From a virus, in the IMG/VR virus record IMGVR_UViG_3300033182_001015, positions 1-60,986 of that record: DNA of 60,986 bases; one strand, 5' to 3'. Within the stretch, counting starts at the first letter, position 1. Each line of letters begins with the position of its first letter. Under the pieces are notes generated by a model. The model did not search any database. It saw only the letters and a list, made by a program, of their open reading frames with translations, and was not told the origin of the DNA. This document shows positions 25,229-31,660 of the stretch, in pieces. A program made the translations under genes and the position numbers.

Positions 25229-25250
25229 GGCCACTTCGGTGGCCTTTTTT
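25229..25250 (+). terminator. Intrinsic terminator after gp32
   Basis: GGCCAC-TTCG-GTGGCC (25229-25244) with a UUCG tetraloop, followed by TTTTTT (25245-25250). The minus-strand gene ends inside the T-run, so the hairpin also lies just after that gene. On that strand no T-run follows it. Confidence 0.92.
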
Positions 25251-27933
25251 ATGTCTGATAGAAATTGGCTTCTGACATAAATGAATCGCTTGTATCAAAA
25301 TTAGGAGATGCGCTGTCAGGCAACGATCCAAAACCAGATGCACCTGTCACAACTGATCTATTATTCTGTGGGCCTCTCATTTGATTCATGACGATTGGAA
25401 TAATCTGCGTTGCTTTCTCTTTGATTTCAGAAGATACGTTGGGCATATATCTTTCTAGCATTTCTGTCATGGCAGCTTCAGACACAACTTCGGCTACTTG
25501 ATTTGTATCGCCTTTCATAATTGTGTCGATTACTTCGGCGTTCTCTTCGCCTACAATATTTTCTAAATCACGTTTTAAAGCTCGTCCAGTCGATTCTTCA
25601 TAAACCTTTTTGACTTGTTCATAGTTACCATCTTCTGCAACCTCAATTGCAGTTGACATAATACCTTCAAACTTTTCAACCGGATCAGAGTCAGAGAAAG
25701 CAGTTTGTAACTTAGCAACATTTTCATACGTTTCGGGATAAATCTCGGTTTCAGTAATATCAGAAACACTATTAATACCACCCGTCTCATATGATTCAGT
25801 AACACCGCTTGGTCTCTCACTTGCCAGTGATGGATCATATACTTTTCTTCTTGTAATTTTACCATTTCTTCCTGCAGCAGATCGAGCATTTTGGAAATTC
25901 GTATATACCTTCTCTTCACCGTCTACGACTACAACAAATTCTTCTTTCATTTCATTTCTAATGTCGATACCACTACCTCCATTACCTGCTAATGCTCTAT
26001 CTAAATACGCATCAAATTGATCACGCTCATCTTGAGTCCGAAGATTTTCATGAGCATATTCACGTAATGTCATACCGGTTTTTTCAACCATTTCTTTGTT
26101 TACTTGTTCTAAATGTTCTTGACTTGTAATAGAATCAGCAACATGGAAAATAGCATTCTCATCTTTATTTGCTCTGTCCATAGATTCAATAGCGATATCG
26201 GTTAATGTTGCATCTTCACCGTATTCTTCTGCTAATTCTTCAGTTGTGGCTACTCTATCAACCAATCCTAAAACTTCACCTGCGTTTATCATTGTATCTT
26301 TGAATACTTGACCAATCCTTTCGAATTCTGCTTTAGCAGCACTCATGATTCTACCGCCGATACCTGCAAATGCTTCTTTCCATGCCTCAATTCCTTCTTT
26401 ATCACTTGTAATGGCATCATACATCGCTGCTACGATTTCATCGGCTCCAATAATTTTCCATAAAGATTCACCAAATAATACGCCTATCGCAACACCTAAA
26501 AGACTGCCTGTAAGTGTACCAAAAAAAGGAATAACTAATGTACCTACACCAGTTCCTAATATAGAAAAAATAGTACATATGATCCATGTACCACCAATGA
26601 TTTGCATAAATTCTCTGAGGTTTGCTTTTGTCCTCTTATGGAATTCTTCTTCTGTAATCATTTGTAAAGCCCAAGATAGCGCAGCATCTTTAATAGCAAC
26701 TAACGCATAGAAAGCTGCCATCCATCTGACTGGTTTGGCCAAAAATCCTTTAAATAAAGAAGCAGCTACTGCACCCATTTTACCAATTACACTGGTGACA
26801 TTTGCGATAGCACCTGTAAATGGTTTAATAATTTTTCCAATGAGTTCTGTAAATCCTTTCATTAATTCATATGCGCGCATCGCTTTTGTATTGGGTTTTG
26901 GAGCCCATGCTCTGACTTGAGCGATGCTTTCTGCCATTCTTGCAATACGACTCGGCTGTTGCGGACCAATTGCCATGGCTTTTTCGATTCTAGCAAGTTT
27001 CCAATCACTAAATTTATCAATCATATTAACTGCTATTTGTGCCATACCCCTTTTAATATTTCCGCCCAATGCTCCCAAACCAATAGCAATTTGTGTATAC
27101 TTTTCTTCTATATTATCTAACCATCCGAGATTATCTTCTACAACCTCTCCGAGTGTTGCATCCGGATCATCTGGTTCAAAATCTTTTGCGAGTTGAGCAA
27201 AACCTAATGCAATAGCGGGGAATGCTAGCTTTGTTAATAGATCTTCGAGGAAATTACTTAAACCTGCACTACCTTTCGCTAAAGCTTGCATCGGTCCAAG
27301 CGCTTCTTCTTTTTTCTCAATTGCCTCTTCGTCTCGCCTTCTTTCATTTTGCCTTTTGGTTCTTCTGTTTTCGTCAACAGCATCATCTACAGAATCCGAA
27401 AGGGTATTCATCGCAGCAGTCTGTGCTGCTAATGCACCTATAGAATTAGAAATAGCATTGATTTCCGTGCCCTGTTTAATAGCAGATTCAATTTTTACTG
27501 GAGTATAGTTATCATCGAAATAATTTTCGACTATTTCTTGAGGAGGTATTTTAATATCAAGCGGGGCGTCTTCTATCAGAGTAAGATCAGTACGCTCAGC
27601 AATAGGTGTAAGTGCTTCGAGAGATGCCGGTAGTCCAGCTAGATTTATTTCTGGATCATCTAATTTTATTGATCCAATTCCAGCATTACCGCCTTGTTGA
27701 CCTACGTCTACATTATTAGAACCTGCAGCAGCATCATCACTACCACCACTACCTTTTAATAAACTGCCGACTATAAGAGCATTGCGCATACGCGCGAGCA
27801 TGCCGGCACTTTTACCAACTTTATCGGCAGTTTTACTTGCTGTACGGGCAACACGCGCATTCTTACCTTTGGCCACTCTACGTAAGCCAATGATTAATTT
27901 TCGTATTCCTTTAGCTGCTTTTAATTTAGACAT
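25249..27933 (-). CDS. Probable tail tape measure protein (inverted)
   Basis: Start chosen at complement 27931-27933 (MSKLKAAKGIRKLI), 33 bases downstream of a minus-strand late box; a longer upstream extension would overlap the opposite gene and promoter. The 894-residue product has a basic N-terminus, long helical segments and central hydrophobic stretches (IIGGTWIICTIFSILGTGVG, LVIPFFGTLTGSLLGVAIGV), then an acidic helical C-terminal half. Length, helix content and central hydrophobic segments fit a tape measure, and tail assembly genes lie next to it. No diagnostic motif exists, and it is opposite in strand to the rest of the tail genes. Confidence 0.5.
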   Translation of the reverse strand: MSKLKAAKGIRKLIIGLRRVAKGKNARVARTASKTADKVGKSAGMLARMRNALIVGSLLKGSGGSDDAAAGSNNVDVGQQGGNAGIGSIKLDDPEINLAGLPASLEALTPIAERTDLTLIEDAPLDIKIPPQEIVENYFDDNYTPVKIESAIKQGTEINAISNSIGALAAQTAAMNTLSDSVDDAVDENRRTKRQNERRRDEEAIEKKEEALGPMQALAKGSAGLSNFLEDLLTKLAFPAIALGFAQLAKDFEPDDPDATLGEVVEDNLGWLDNIEEKYTQIAIGLGALGGNIKRGMAQIAVNMIDKFSDWKLARIEKAMAIGPQQPSRIARMAESIAQVRAWAPKPNTKAMRAYELMKGFTELIGKIIKPFTGAIANVTSVIGKMGAVAASLFKGFLAKPVRWMAAFYALVAIKDAALSWALQMITEEEFHKRTKANLREFMQIIGGTWIICTIFSILGTGVGTLVIPFFGTLTGSLLGVAIGVLFGESLWKIIGADEIVAAMYDAITSDKEGIEAWKEAFAGIGGRIMSAAKAEFERIGQVFKDTMINAGEVLGLVDRVATTEELAEEYGEDATLTDIAIESMDRANKDENAIFHVADSITSQEHLEQVNKEMVEKTGMTLREYAHENLRTQDERDQFDAYLDRALAGNGGSGIDIRNEMKEEFVVVVDGEEKVYTNFQNARSAAGRNGKITRRKVYDPSLASERPSGVTESYETGGINSVSDITETEIYPETYENVAKLQTAFSDSDPVEKFEGIMSTAIEVAEDGNYEQVKKVYEESTGRALKRDLENIVGEENAEVIDTIMKGDTNQVAEVVSEAAMTEMLERYMPNVSSEIKEKATQIIPIVMNQMRGPQNNRSVVTGASGFGSLPDSASPNFDTSDSFMSEANFYQT

Positions 27934-27943
27934 GGGTATATCG

Positions 27944-27951
27944 CATAAATA
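27944..27951 (+). promoter_or_regulatory. Late box (+) of an overlapping bidirectional pair
   Basis: CATAAATA, one mismatch from consensus, 30 bp before GTG 27982 on the + strand. Predicted start near 27957. Confidence 0.55.
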
Positions 27952-27965
27952 AGAAAAACTATTTC

Positions 27966-27973
27966 TATTTATA
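27966..27973 (-). promoter_or_regulatory. Late promoter (-) of an overlapping bidirectional pair
   Basis: TATTTATA on the + strand, perfect TATAAATA on the minus strand, 33 bp before the tape-measure-like ATG. Predicted start near 27960, only a few bases from that of the + strand box. Confidence 0.65.
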
Positions 27974-27981
27974 AGGCAATC

Positions 27982-28581
27982 GTGGCTACATACATTTTCC
28001 AAAAGATAGCTCAAGAGGGACAAACACAAGATTTTTCTGATGCAGAAGAATCACGTGACTGGTATCGCGATAAAGCTCAATCAATAAAGTCCGTAAATAT
28101 GAAGCGTGAGCTTCGTAATCGCGATCGTACATATAACAAAATGGTAGCTACTGATATCGGTCGTATGTATATGTTTCAATACGACCCGAAAGGCAAAGAT
28201 ACCTTACCTTATTATGATGTGTTTCCTTTGATTTTCGTGTTAGAAAAATATAATGATGGATTTTTAGGCATGAACCTTCATTATTTACCTCCCGTTTTTA
28301 GAGCTCGATTGATGGATCGTTTATATAGCATCGAGAGACAAGATAATTTACGTGAGTCGAAAAAATTAAGATTGAATTATGGTCTACTCAATTCTGTGGC
28401 GAAGTATAAATACTTTAGGCCTACCGTTAAACGCTACTTGAATTCACAGGTAAGATCACGATTTCTTTGGGTACCATATGAAGAATGGGATATCGCATTA
28501 ATGTTACCTACACAGAGATTTAGAAAAGGTAAGGCCAACGTCGTATGGCGCGATTCAAAACAATTAATAACGAGATCATAA
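27982..28581 (+). CDS. 2: Probable DNA end protector, gp2-like
   Basis: The 199-residue basic protein starts at GTG 27982. Key segments are RMYMFQYDPKGKDTLPYYDV, FPLIFVLEKYNDGFLGMNLH, YLPPVFRARLMDRLY and EEWDIALMLPTQRF. I recall this pattern as the gp2 DNA end protector annotation of marine T4-like phages. In T4 gp2 binds packaged DNA ends and protects them from RecBCD. T4 gp2 is longer (about 270), so orthology is tentative. T4 also groups genes 2, 4, 53 and 5, matching the order here. Confidence 0.5.
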   Translation: MATYIFQKIAQEGQTQDFSDAEESRDWYRDKAQSIKSVNMKRELRNRDRTYNKMVATDIGRMYMFQYDPKGKDTLPYYDVFPLIFVLEKYNDGFLGMNLHYLPPVFRARLMDRLYSIERQDNLRESKKLRLNYGLLNSVAKYKYFRPTVKRYLNSQVRSRFLWVPYEEWDIALMLPTQRFRKGKANVVWRDSKQLITRS

Positions 28582-29119: not shown

Positions 29120-29830
29120 ATGGCCCTCCCTAAAATTTCAACCCCGACATTTGAGTGCGAATTGCCTTCTACGAAGGAATCAATTCGTTATCGGCCATTT
29201 CTTGTTAAAGAAGAAAAGGTTTTGCTGATTGCAAAAGAATCGGGTGAGAAGGTCGACATCTATAATGCGATTAAAACAATCGTAAATAACTGCGTTTTAA
29301 AAGAAGGCTTTGATGTTAACGATTGTCCGACATGGGACATGGAGTATTTGTTTATTCAAATCCGCTCTGTATCCGTTGGAAACATCGTAAAGTTTAAAGT
29401 CGTTGATAGTAACGATGGCATCGAATATGATTTGCAGTTAGATCTAAACGATGTTGTAGTTCAATTTCCTGAAGAACATGATAACAAAATTATGTTAACT
29501 GATGAGATTGGTCTAACATTGAAATATCCCACACCTGCTTTATCCGATAAAATTACTAATATCGAATCATTAGTAGAACTCAATGAAACAATGATTGGTG
29601 AGTGTATCGATACAATTTTTGACTCTGAAGATGTGTATTCATGGAAACAGGAGTCGAAGAAAGACAAAAAAGAATTTATTGAAAATATGCCGGTCGAGGC
29701 GTTTTCAAAAATTCAAGACTTTTTTAGTTCTTCACCGAAAATTGAGCACATAGTTAACTATACGAATAGCGAAGGCACAGAAAAGAAAGTTGTGTTTAGG
29801 GATCTTGAGGATTTTTTTCAATTGGGCTGA
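29120..29830 (+). CDS. 26: Baseplate hub assembly protein, gp26-like (0-frame product)
   Basis: The 236-residue product begins ALPKISTPTFECELPSTKES and IRYRPFLVKEEKVLLIAKE, the conserved N-terminus of T4 gp26/gp51-type hub proteins. In the family it takes part in hub assembly, probably as a chaperone. Start ATG 29120 follows ggagatatatt. Near its end the frame passes T-TTT-TTT (29812-29818), and the -1 frame continues openly into a 60-residue segment, so this stop at 29828 may be only one of two ends. See the fusion entry at 29812. Confidence 0.8.
   Translation: MALPKISTPTFECELPSTKESIRYRPFLVKEEKVLLIAKESGEKVDIYNAIKTIVNNCVLKEGFDVNDCPTWDMEYLFIQIRSVSVGNIVKFKVVDSNDGIEYDLQLDLNDVVVQFPEEHDNKIMLTDEIGLTLKYPTPALSDKITNIESLVELNETMIGECIDTIFDSEDVYSWKQESKKDKKEFIENMPVEAFSKIQDFFSSSPKIEHIVNYTNSEGTEKKVVFRDLEDFFQLG
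29812..29818 (+). promoter_or_regulatory. Candidate -1 ribosomal frameshift site (T TTT TTT)
   Basis: The gp26 frame reads GAT-TTT-TTT-CAA-TTG-GGC-TGA. The seven T residues fit X-XXY-YYZ in exact phase, letting both tRNAs re-pair one base back. The shifted frame reads TCA-ATT-GGG-CTG-AGT-TAT-ATG and stays open to 30000, giving a predicted 293-residue fusion. A homopolymer sequencing error would look the same. Confidence 0.6.
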
Positions 29831-29835
29831 GTTAT

Positions 29836-30000
29836 ATGACGCTCTACAATCATTATAAGCTCAACTTTGACGTAACTCAGTCGCACAACTTCTCAATCAC
29901 AGAAATAAATGATATGATACCTTTCGAAAGAGAGGTATATGTAGATCTTATTATTGAGAAAAATAATAAAGAAAAAGAAGGACCTCAGTTAGAATTTTAA
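29836..30000 (+). CDS. gp26 C-terminal extension (-1 frame), or separate 54-aa gene
   Basis: Reads MTLYNHYKLNFDVTQSHNFS followed by ITEINDMIPFEREVYVDLII. The ...MIPFERE.Y segment is typical of the C-terminal part of gp26-type proteins that in relatives, as I recall, is in one frame with gp26. The ATG at 29836 has no convincing ribosome site, favouring expression by frameshift from gp26. Its last 12 bases overlap the 3' end of the convergent gp4 gene. Confidence 0.65.
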   Translation: MTLYNHYKLNFDVTQSHNFSITEINDMIPFEREVYVDLIIEKNNKEKEGPQLEF

Positions 30001-30435
30001 TCCTAACTCTTTTTCTGTGATAATCGTAAATTCCCATCCTCTATCAGCACAATAACTACGCGCTGCTTGCCATTTAGAAGAATTTACACCCCATGTCCTT
30101 ACTTCGTATAAATACCTCTTAGTAAGATTTTTTTGCGGAGTTGGTTCTACGGTTTCTTTAAATGGTTTAATTTCCACTACAACCGTATCCAGTTTCCCTT
30201 CGCTGTTAATCTTCTTAATCCAAAAATCTGGAAAGTATCGATGAACTCTGCCATCGATTGGTGAACGATACGGAATGATCAGCTCTTCACTTGCCCATTC
30301 CTTAATGCCACTATTGTTGTCGAGATATCTCATGAATAGTAACTCCCACCTACTTCGATAAATAATGTTGGTAGGATCGCCACGATACTTACTCGGATTT
30401 TTAGGTTTGAAGACACCTTTATAAGTTTTCGCCAT
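29989..30435 (-). CDS. 4: Head completion nuclease, gp4-like
   Basis: Start at complement 30433-30435 gives MAKTYKGVFKPKNPSKYRGD, the standard gp4 N-terminus; upstream in-frame ATGs would read through the promoter box. The 148-residue protein contains IIYRSRWELLFMRYLD, a PD-(D/E)XK-like core YFPDFWIKKI...VVVEIKPFKE (D-x-n-E-x-K) and KWQAARSYCADRGWEF. In T4, gp4 (gp50/65) acts at the portal in head completion. It is the only minus-strand gene inside the + strand baseplate operon. The late box at 30441 is just five bases upstream. Confidence 0.85.
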   Translation of the reverse strand: MAKTYKGVFKPKNPSKYRGDPTNIIYRSRWELLFMRYLDNNSGIKEWASEELIIPYRSPIDGRVHRYFPDFWIKKINSEGKLDTVVVEIKPFKETVEPTPQKNLTKRYLYEVRTWGVNSSKWQAARSYCADRGWEFTIITEKELGLKF

Positions 30436-30440
30436 ACACA

Positions 30441-30448
30441 TATTTATA
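30441..30448 (-). promoter_or_regulatory. Late box for gp4, leaderless arrangement
   Basis: TATTTATA on the + strand, perfect TATAAATA on the minus strand, five bases before the gp4 ATG. The gap before the divergent gp48 ATG at 30458 is nine bases. Confidence 0.55.
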
Positions 30449-30457
30449 GGAATAGAC

Positions 30458-31660
30458 ATGGCAAATGACAATCAAATAAGACCGATAGAAACACAATTAA
30501 AACAAAAGTTTTCTTCGTCTGAAAGAACACAGATAAATTCACTCAAGAATTTAGGCGGTGGATTGCCTTCGAAGGCTGGAGGTATTACGTCGAGTGTTAG
30601 TCAACAAGTAAGTAATATCGACGCTCGACAAAAGTCAGCTATGGAGATAGGAGCAAACCTAGCGAAAAAACTTGAGAGCGCTGGAGCATATCCTAAAACA
30701 GCTGAAAGAGTTATTGCTCCTGCTGTTACATCAACTGTCTATGATAAAATTCCTTTGGCCGAAAAGAGAGGCGATCGAGTTTTAAATAAGCGGATTAATG
30801 TCAGACCTAAAAATCCTCGAAAACAAATTCAAAATACTAAAGATAGATTAGTAGGTGAACAAGATTTAAGATTCGCCGGTTTAGAGTTTCCTACTACTTT
30901 GACGTCAGAAGCGGCGTCATATGTTTATCTTCATTTTCAAATTTATAATCGTGGTACACCAGAATCTGGTGGATCATTTTCTCCAGGAGATAAAATATTT
31001 TTACCTATTCCGGAAAACTTGTCTACTGGTTTTAACATGAGATTTGAAGAAAGAGATACCGGCGCGTTAGGAGATCTTGCTAATGGAGATGCAGTAAGAA
31101 ATGCTATTAAAACTTACAAGAATGTAGGTAGTGTAGGAGAAGCTGTTTCAGGAATAACTGTGGGCGAAGCTCAAGATGCAATTAAAGCTATTGCTCAAAG
31201 ATCTATTTTTGCTGGTTTAAATTCAGTCAGTGAAACATTAGGCGGTATTGCTAGTCAAAACGCTGGCATAGTCAATAACCCGTTGCCTACAGTTTTCTTT
31301 AAAGGTATGGATTTGCGTTCATTTACATGGACATGGAAACTTGTGCCTAAATCATCAGAAGATGCAAGCGCAATCAAAAATATTTTAAAAACTTTACGAA
31401 AAAATGTTTTACCAGAAAAATTAGATGGTGAGACTACATATTTAAAATATCCTAATATGGTTTTGCCAAATGTTTTAGAAGCTGGTGGAGCGTCAAATCT
31501 AGATCTATATGGAAAATTTAAAAAGAGTTCGGTAAAAGAATTGCTTATTAATTATACAGCTGAAGGTACATCAGCATATTTTGTTGATGGTCACCCTGTA
31601 GCTATCAATTTGCAAATTACTTTCCAAGAAATTGAAGCGTATACGAAGGAAGATGCATAA
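30458..31660 (+). CDS. 48: Baseplate tail-tube cap, gp48-like
   Basis: The 400-residue protein has a low-complexity N-terminal third (possible tape-measure or tube contact). The tube-cap pattern VFFKGMDLRSFTWTWKLVPK follows, then SSEDASAIKNILKTLRKNV, KYPNMVLPNVLEAGG and the C-terminal FVDGHPVAINLQITFQEIEA. Gp48 caps the baseplate and starts tube polymerisation with gp54. The start lies 23 bases from the divergent gp4 start. The stop overlaps the gp53 ATG. Confidence 0.8.
   Translation: MANDNQIRPIETQLKQKFSSSERTQINSLKNLGGGLPSKAGGITSSVSQQVSNIDARQKSAMEIGANLAKKLESAGAYPKTAERVIAPAVTSTVYDKIPLAEKRGDRVLNKRINVRPKNPRKQIQNTKDRLVGEQDLRFAGLEFPTTLTSEAASYVYLHFQIYNRGTPESGGSFSPGDKIFLPIPENLSTGFNMRFEERDTGALGDLANGDAVRNAIKTYKNVGSVGEAVSGITVGEAQDAIKAIAQRSIFAGLNSVSETLGGIASQNAGIVNNPLPTVFFKGMDLRSFTWTWKLVPKSSEDASAIKNILKTLRKNVLPEKLDGETTYLKYPNMVLPNVLEAGGASNLDLYGKFKKSSVKELLINYTAEGTSAYFVDGHPVAINLQITFQEIEAYTKEDA

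Follow-up and report, generated by a model that had tools for sequence, protein, structure and literature searches.

Does the gp26 gene of this T4-type phage yield one protein or two? The question arises at the 3′ end of the gene, within a 60,986-nucleotide stretch of viral DNA (hereafter, the window), where the 0 frame reads GAG GAT TTT TTT CAA TTG GGC TGA. A run of seven T at 29812–29818 begins at the third position of GAT, which places it in exact −1 phase, and sits four codons ahead of the gp26 stop, a UGA at 29828–29830. The −1 frame, read from 29818 as TCA ATT GGG CTG AGT TAT ATG ..., has 60 open codons before a TAA at 29998–30000. The elements of the gene are as follows, where TAC denotes a tail assembly chaperone:

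29120–29830, plus strand: gp26, the short form (TAC-N), 236 aa in the 0 frame, matching Pfam T4_baseplate (PF12322, E = 1e-55) and PHROG 150 "baseplate hub" (E = 2e-63)
29812–29818, plus strand: slippery heptamer T_TTT_TTT in −1 phase
29818–30000, plus strand: −1-frame extension of 60 codons plus stop, the TAC-C domain and the "gp51" ORF of relatives, matching PHROG 634 (E = 7e-19) and positions 241–282 of PHROG 150 (E = 1e-4) and aligning with the relatives
29120–30000, plus strand (29120–29818 in frame 0, 29818–29997 in frame −1): predicted frameshift product TAC-NC, 293 aa, with residue conservation beginning in the codons that directly follow the slip

The initial annotation had read this arrangement as a −1 frameshift like that of lambda G/GT, giving two proteins of 236 and 293 residues from one gene, the longer with a C-terminal segment typical of the gp26 family. 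Its coordinates and phase for the heptamer and both protein lengths proved correct, and the open −1 frame does run to 30000, matching PHROG 634 (named gp51 "baseplate hub assembly catalyst" in the database) as well as the C terminus of PHROG 150. Its remark that no ribosome site precedes the first −1-frame ATG, at 29836, also held, as we found no Shine-Dalgarno (SD) sequence in CAATTGGGCTGAGTTAT. The frameshift and its two-protein outcome are supported by conservation, as described below. We conclude that gp26 is very probably a TAC-N and that −1 ribosomal frameshifting at the T7 run would yield TAC-NC, following the logic of lambda G/GT.

We evaluated the heptamer across relatives obtained from a scan of IMG/VR (80 relatives), to which named phages were added. 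This gave 95 sequences including the window, one of which runs off its contig end, so that 94 were scored; 82 sequences that are <90% identical formed the non-redundant set. The closest relatives of the window in this sample were 67%, 61%, and 60% identical to it, and a search for other assemblies carrying the exact junction of this phage found none. A heptamer of the form X_XXY_YYZ occurred in the same, correct phase in 94/94 relatives (56 TTTTTTC, 36 TTTTTTT, and 2 TTTTTTG), at 0 to 8 codons from the stop, mostly 1 or 3, and the gp51/TAC-C domain followed in the −1 frame in every contig long enough to contain it. The named phages with the heptamer infect Synechococcus, Sinorhizobium, Rhizobium, Vibrio, Aeromonas, and Cronobacter, and the same arrangement was found in Caulobacter, Methylophilales, and Pelagibacter phages. 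The expectation that some relatives might carry both parts in one frame was not borne out (0/94): nearly all have the same frameshift, and T4 has two genes.

Codon usage at the heptamer is more fixed than the protein sequence requires. In the non-redundant set, the first Phe was encoded by TTT in 82/82 sequences, against a background of 68% (P = 3e-14 given the amino acids and codon usage, a value that ignores shared ancestry), and the codon ahead of the heptamer, be it Asp, Ser, Asn, or Ala, ended in T in 82/82 (P = 3e-16 given amino acids and usage, again ignoring shared ancestry). In a synonymous-site scan, these two codons stood out against the remainder of the gene, the start region excepted. 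The heptamer is thus conserved beyond amino-acid constraint, in a comparison that ignores phylogeny, and its retention in all relatives examined save one small group of Vibrio phages argues, at the level of sequence, that the slip site is real.

Signals that probably stimulate slippage were found on both sides of the heptamer, as judged by their conservation. The upstream one is:

29798–29802, plus strand: SD-like element AGGGA, 9 nt 5′ of the heptamer, a probable 5′ stimulator

Among the relatives, pairing with the anti-SD sequence peaked between −15 and −9 relative to the heptamer, where it exceeded that of synonymous recodings (t = −6 to −8.5), and an SD-like motif was present in 47/82 compared to 7.5% of control windows. 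We consider it probable that AGGGA promotes slippage. Downstream, RNA structure was maximal in the 45 nt that follow the heptamer. Compared with synonymous recoding of the −1 frame, it had a mean z of −2.45 ± 0.19, versus −0.43 ± 0.14 for a distal control, and a mean z of −2.01 when the first codons were kept fixed; the window's own value against synonymous recoding was −2.4, and the window folded alone gave a z of −2.15. The initial annotation had proposed predicting a stimulatory hairpin after 29818, and the prediction returned a stem with these arms:

29827–29834, plus strand: 5′ arm CUGAGUUA (= CTGAGTTA), overlapping the 0-frame UGA, from folding and covariation
29873–29880, plus strand: 3′ arm UAACUCAG (= TAACTCAG), from pairing and double changes

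We scored this stem in a gap-free alignment of 31 sequences of the window's group, where the stem and its flanking pairs had 86% of cells paired, compared to 24 to 41% when slid. Double changes at five stem pairs amounted to ten cells, versus 3.7 in shuffles, a count that, given the relatedness of the sequences, should not be read as a probability; one clear example is the compensatory exchange of A-U for C-G at columns 19 and 66 in L028. RNAalifold recovered the same stem. In a second group, mostly T6C, we observed structure in single sequences and no consensus stem. The covariation suggests that the stem spanning the 0-frame stop is a probable stimulator of slippage, and it joins the SD-like element as a probable stimulator that was absent from the first reading of the locus. 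Tentatively, and with some doubt on our part, the cassette may represent a distinct variant, combining a dnaX-like SD element with a stem that has a 38-nt loop and holds the 0-frame stop in its 5′ arm, such that terminating and frameshifting ribosomes would see different RNA structures, a difference that would set how much short relative to long chaperone is made.

A different reading would make the downstream ORF its own gene 51, started at 29836 by reinitiation after the gp26 stop, as it is annotated in many records (e.g., S-PM2, phiM7, and S-CRM01), most of which lack credible initiation signals; some records do have an overlapping stop-start, TAATG. The positions of the starts speak against this reading. 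Over half of the 82 sequences either have their first −1-frame ATG at least 15 codons past the heptamer or have none at all, and such late ATGs lie inside or beyond conserved residues. The residues right after the slip (FF..xLSHxxLENYY) are conserved in the −1 frame ahead of any start. In 15/82, a −1-frame stop directly abuts the heptamer, leaving the heptamer itself and a later start as the only ways into the frame. In the window itself, the ATG at 29836 lacks an SD, and a separate gene would leave both the frozen heptamer and its stimulators unexplained. We therefore judge a separate gene 51 very unlikely here. Homologues with the small ORF as a separate gene had been named initially as a finding that would argue against the frameshift; as a general rule such a gene is ruled out by the missing starts and the conserved junction residues, but it is likely, and probably the true arrangement, in one group that lacks the heptamer:

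L088 2663–2783, and L112 and L113 about 2020–2110: the region in Vibrio phages K469, K445, and D533, family members without a heptamer

These three phages have CTT TTT or CTT TTC in place of the heptamer, and their downstream ORF has an overlapping TAATG start. Their C-terminal domain may be encoded by a separate, coupled gene, and the overlap is possibly a third way of supplying this domain. Frameshifting is accordingly not universal in the family. A scan of viral contigs for further relatives of the K469 type found none. Separately, we noted that NC_006820, KR052480, NC_015569, and similar records list gp51 as an independent gene and leave the frameshift unannotated.

Slippage could also occur during transcription instead of translation, given the T7 run in the window. 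In bacteria, transcriptional slippage has been described at runs of nine A or T (PMC5009743), whereas 49/82 sequences have six T only. Moreover, the codon phase is fixed in 94/94 relatives, a regularity for which RNA polymerase would have no need, and an SD-like element and a stem after the heptamer are stimulators of ribosomal frameshifting. With T6 in most relatives, we regard transcriptional slippage as very unlikely. A sequencing or assembly error in the homopolymer, with a true gene in one frame, had been put forward as the main alternative and is excluded, since, although T runs are error-prone and the T5 in the record of Stenotrophomonas phage IME-SM1 is one base shorter than the counterpart in near-identical phages, runs of T6 to T8 with the same phase and frame relation occur in 94/94 relatives and a one-frame fusion in none.

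The IME-SM1 record (L085, KR560069, near 2740) is one base short at its T5, likely by an indel, and its annotated gp26 is stretched to 280 aa. Across the matched span, fourteen near-identical records are longer by one base, and L095 of that group, read directly, has T6, for which reason the T5 is likely itself the error. Given this one-base difference from near-identical records, we rejected IME-SM1 as a natural exception.

Returning to ribosomal frameshifting, we propose that the majority of ribosomes would terminate at 29828–29830 and produce TAC-N (gp26, 236 aa), while a minority, positioned on U_UUU_UUU with a Phe codon in each of the P and A sites, would slip by −1 and produce TAC-NC (293 aa). 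Slippage would probably be helped by pairing of the upstream AGGGA with 16S rRNA and by the stem further downstream, which spans the stop. If lambda gpG/gpGT is a guide, the two forms would both coat the tape measure protein, with TAC-C recruiting tail tube subunits, and the ratio of the two forms would be the point of a low-efficiency shift. We infer the slippage itself, its efficiency, and the chaperone function from what we observed directly, namely the sequence, its conservation, the frozen codons, and an SD-like element and stem that exceed synonymous controls.

The initial description of gp26 as a T4-type hub gene stood as to family, through PF12322 and PHROG 150, but not as to the label "hub": the gene combines a gp26 family sequence with a gp51-type C-terminal domain, as T4-like TAC-N/TAC-NC genes do, and the name tail assembly chaperone (TAC-N) suits it better than hub structural gene. 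The AlphaFold model of the 236-aa short form had a pLDDT of 90. Compared with solved structures, TAC-N gave no significant match by sequence or fold; weak fold matches were the HK97 chaperone 2OB9 (E = 3.0, probability 0.20) and 3FGX (probability 0.28). Among viral predicted structures, the named top matches were mostly gp26-type baseplate hub proteins.

The comparison with T4 is informative. T4 gp26 is homologous to the window's TAC-N and aligned to its last residues (E = 4e-10), while T4 gp51 matches TAC-N (E = 2e-4) and, with its C-terminal part, TAC-C (E = 5e-6). From these alignments, T4 seems to hold the short and the long chaperone as two genes, 26 and 51, which are divergent, and the end of T4 gene 26 has no frameshift site, in contrast to the single gene with a frameshift in the window phage and most relatives. 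These data support the reading that T4-type phages have a single kind of tail chaperone, whose short form is the "baseplate hub" gp26 and whose long form is the "hub assembly catalyst" gp51, with two genes in T4 and frameshifting elsewhere as two solutions to the same protein-ratio problem. They also support the reading that many records list a frameshift tail as a separate gene, and the evidence from codons, SD, and stem points to concrete mutants.

Other systems share parts of this arrangement. As in lambda gpG/gpGT, a short and a long chaperone come from one gene by a −1 shift near its 3′ end into a downstream domain in the −1 frame, but the lambda proteins have no recognised sequence similarity to the window's chaperone, and the lambda slippery sequence differs. 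P2 gpE/gpE+E′ resembles the window in its T-rich heptamer (T_TTT_TTG) and contractile tail and presumably belongs to a different protein family by sequence. Escherichia coli dnaX has the same order of SD-like element, slippery heptamer, and downstream stem, but there the shift leads to a premature stop and a 1:1 ratio, whereas the window's shift reads past the stop. In T4-like phages, the frameshift is reportedly conserved in several groups, according to the abstract of the 2022 study by Vladimirov and colleagues.

A 2016 review called G-T frameshifting widespread "except T4" (PMC5009743). Tail assembly chaperones have since been identified in T4-like phages (Vladimirov, Gautam & Davidson 2022, Virology 566:9), as cited in the accessible parts of PMC10885494 and PMC12846349, with the chaperone gene present as a short and a long copy in some of these phages (PMC10885494) and poly-T slippery sequences in T4-like TAC-N genes (PMC12846349). 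As far as these excerpts go, those chaperones resemble ours in having a TAC-N with a poly-T site, a TAC-C in the −1 frame, and T4-type members in which the short and long forms each have their own gene; the window genome is apparently not described there. The arrangement reported here is thus not new. The same accessible parts of PMC10885494 and PMC12846349 make no mention of an SD-like element or a stem across the stop for T4-like phages, and the stimulators appear to be new details, together with an inverted, upstream candidate tape measure gene:

25249–28029, minus strand: 926-aa ORF, a candidate tape measure whose client role is inferred (tblastn: L002, 5e-25; L003, 2e-18; L005, 2e-12)

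A tape measure gene usually lies next to the chaperone gene, which is not strictly defining. It directly follows the chaperone genes in lambda, unlike in the window, and Caulobacter phage Cr30 has an order close to lambda G, T, H: a gp26-like gene, the small −1 ORF (TAC-C), one small ORF, and an annotated tape measure protein. The downstream ORFs of other phages gave no phmmer match to a tape measure in the window, and the candidate was found through close relatives: in L002, L003, and L005, the homologue of the 926-aa ORF is the large ORF downstream of the heptamer on the same strand. In the window, no tape measure gene adjoins the chaperone gene; the ORF has seemingly moved and become inverted in this phage, which parts the candidate tape measure from its chaperone. 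The genes around the site are T4-type tail genes (DNA end protector, tail tube, gp26, gp4 on the other strand, gp48 tail tube cap, and gp53). The head closure gene gp4 (29989–30471, minus strand) lies tail to tail with the frameshift extension, and their ends share 12 nt.
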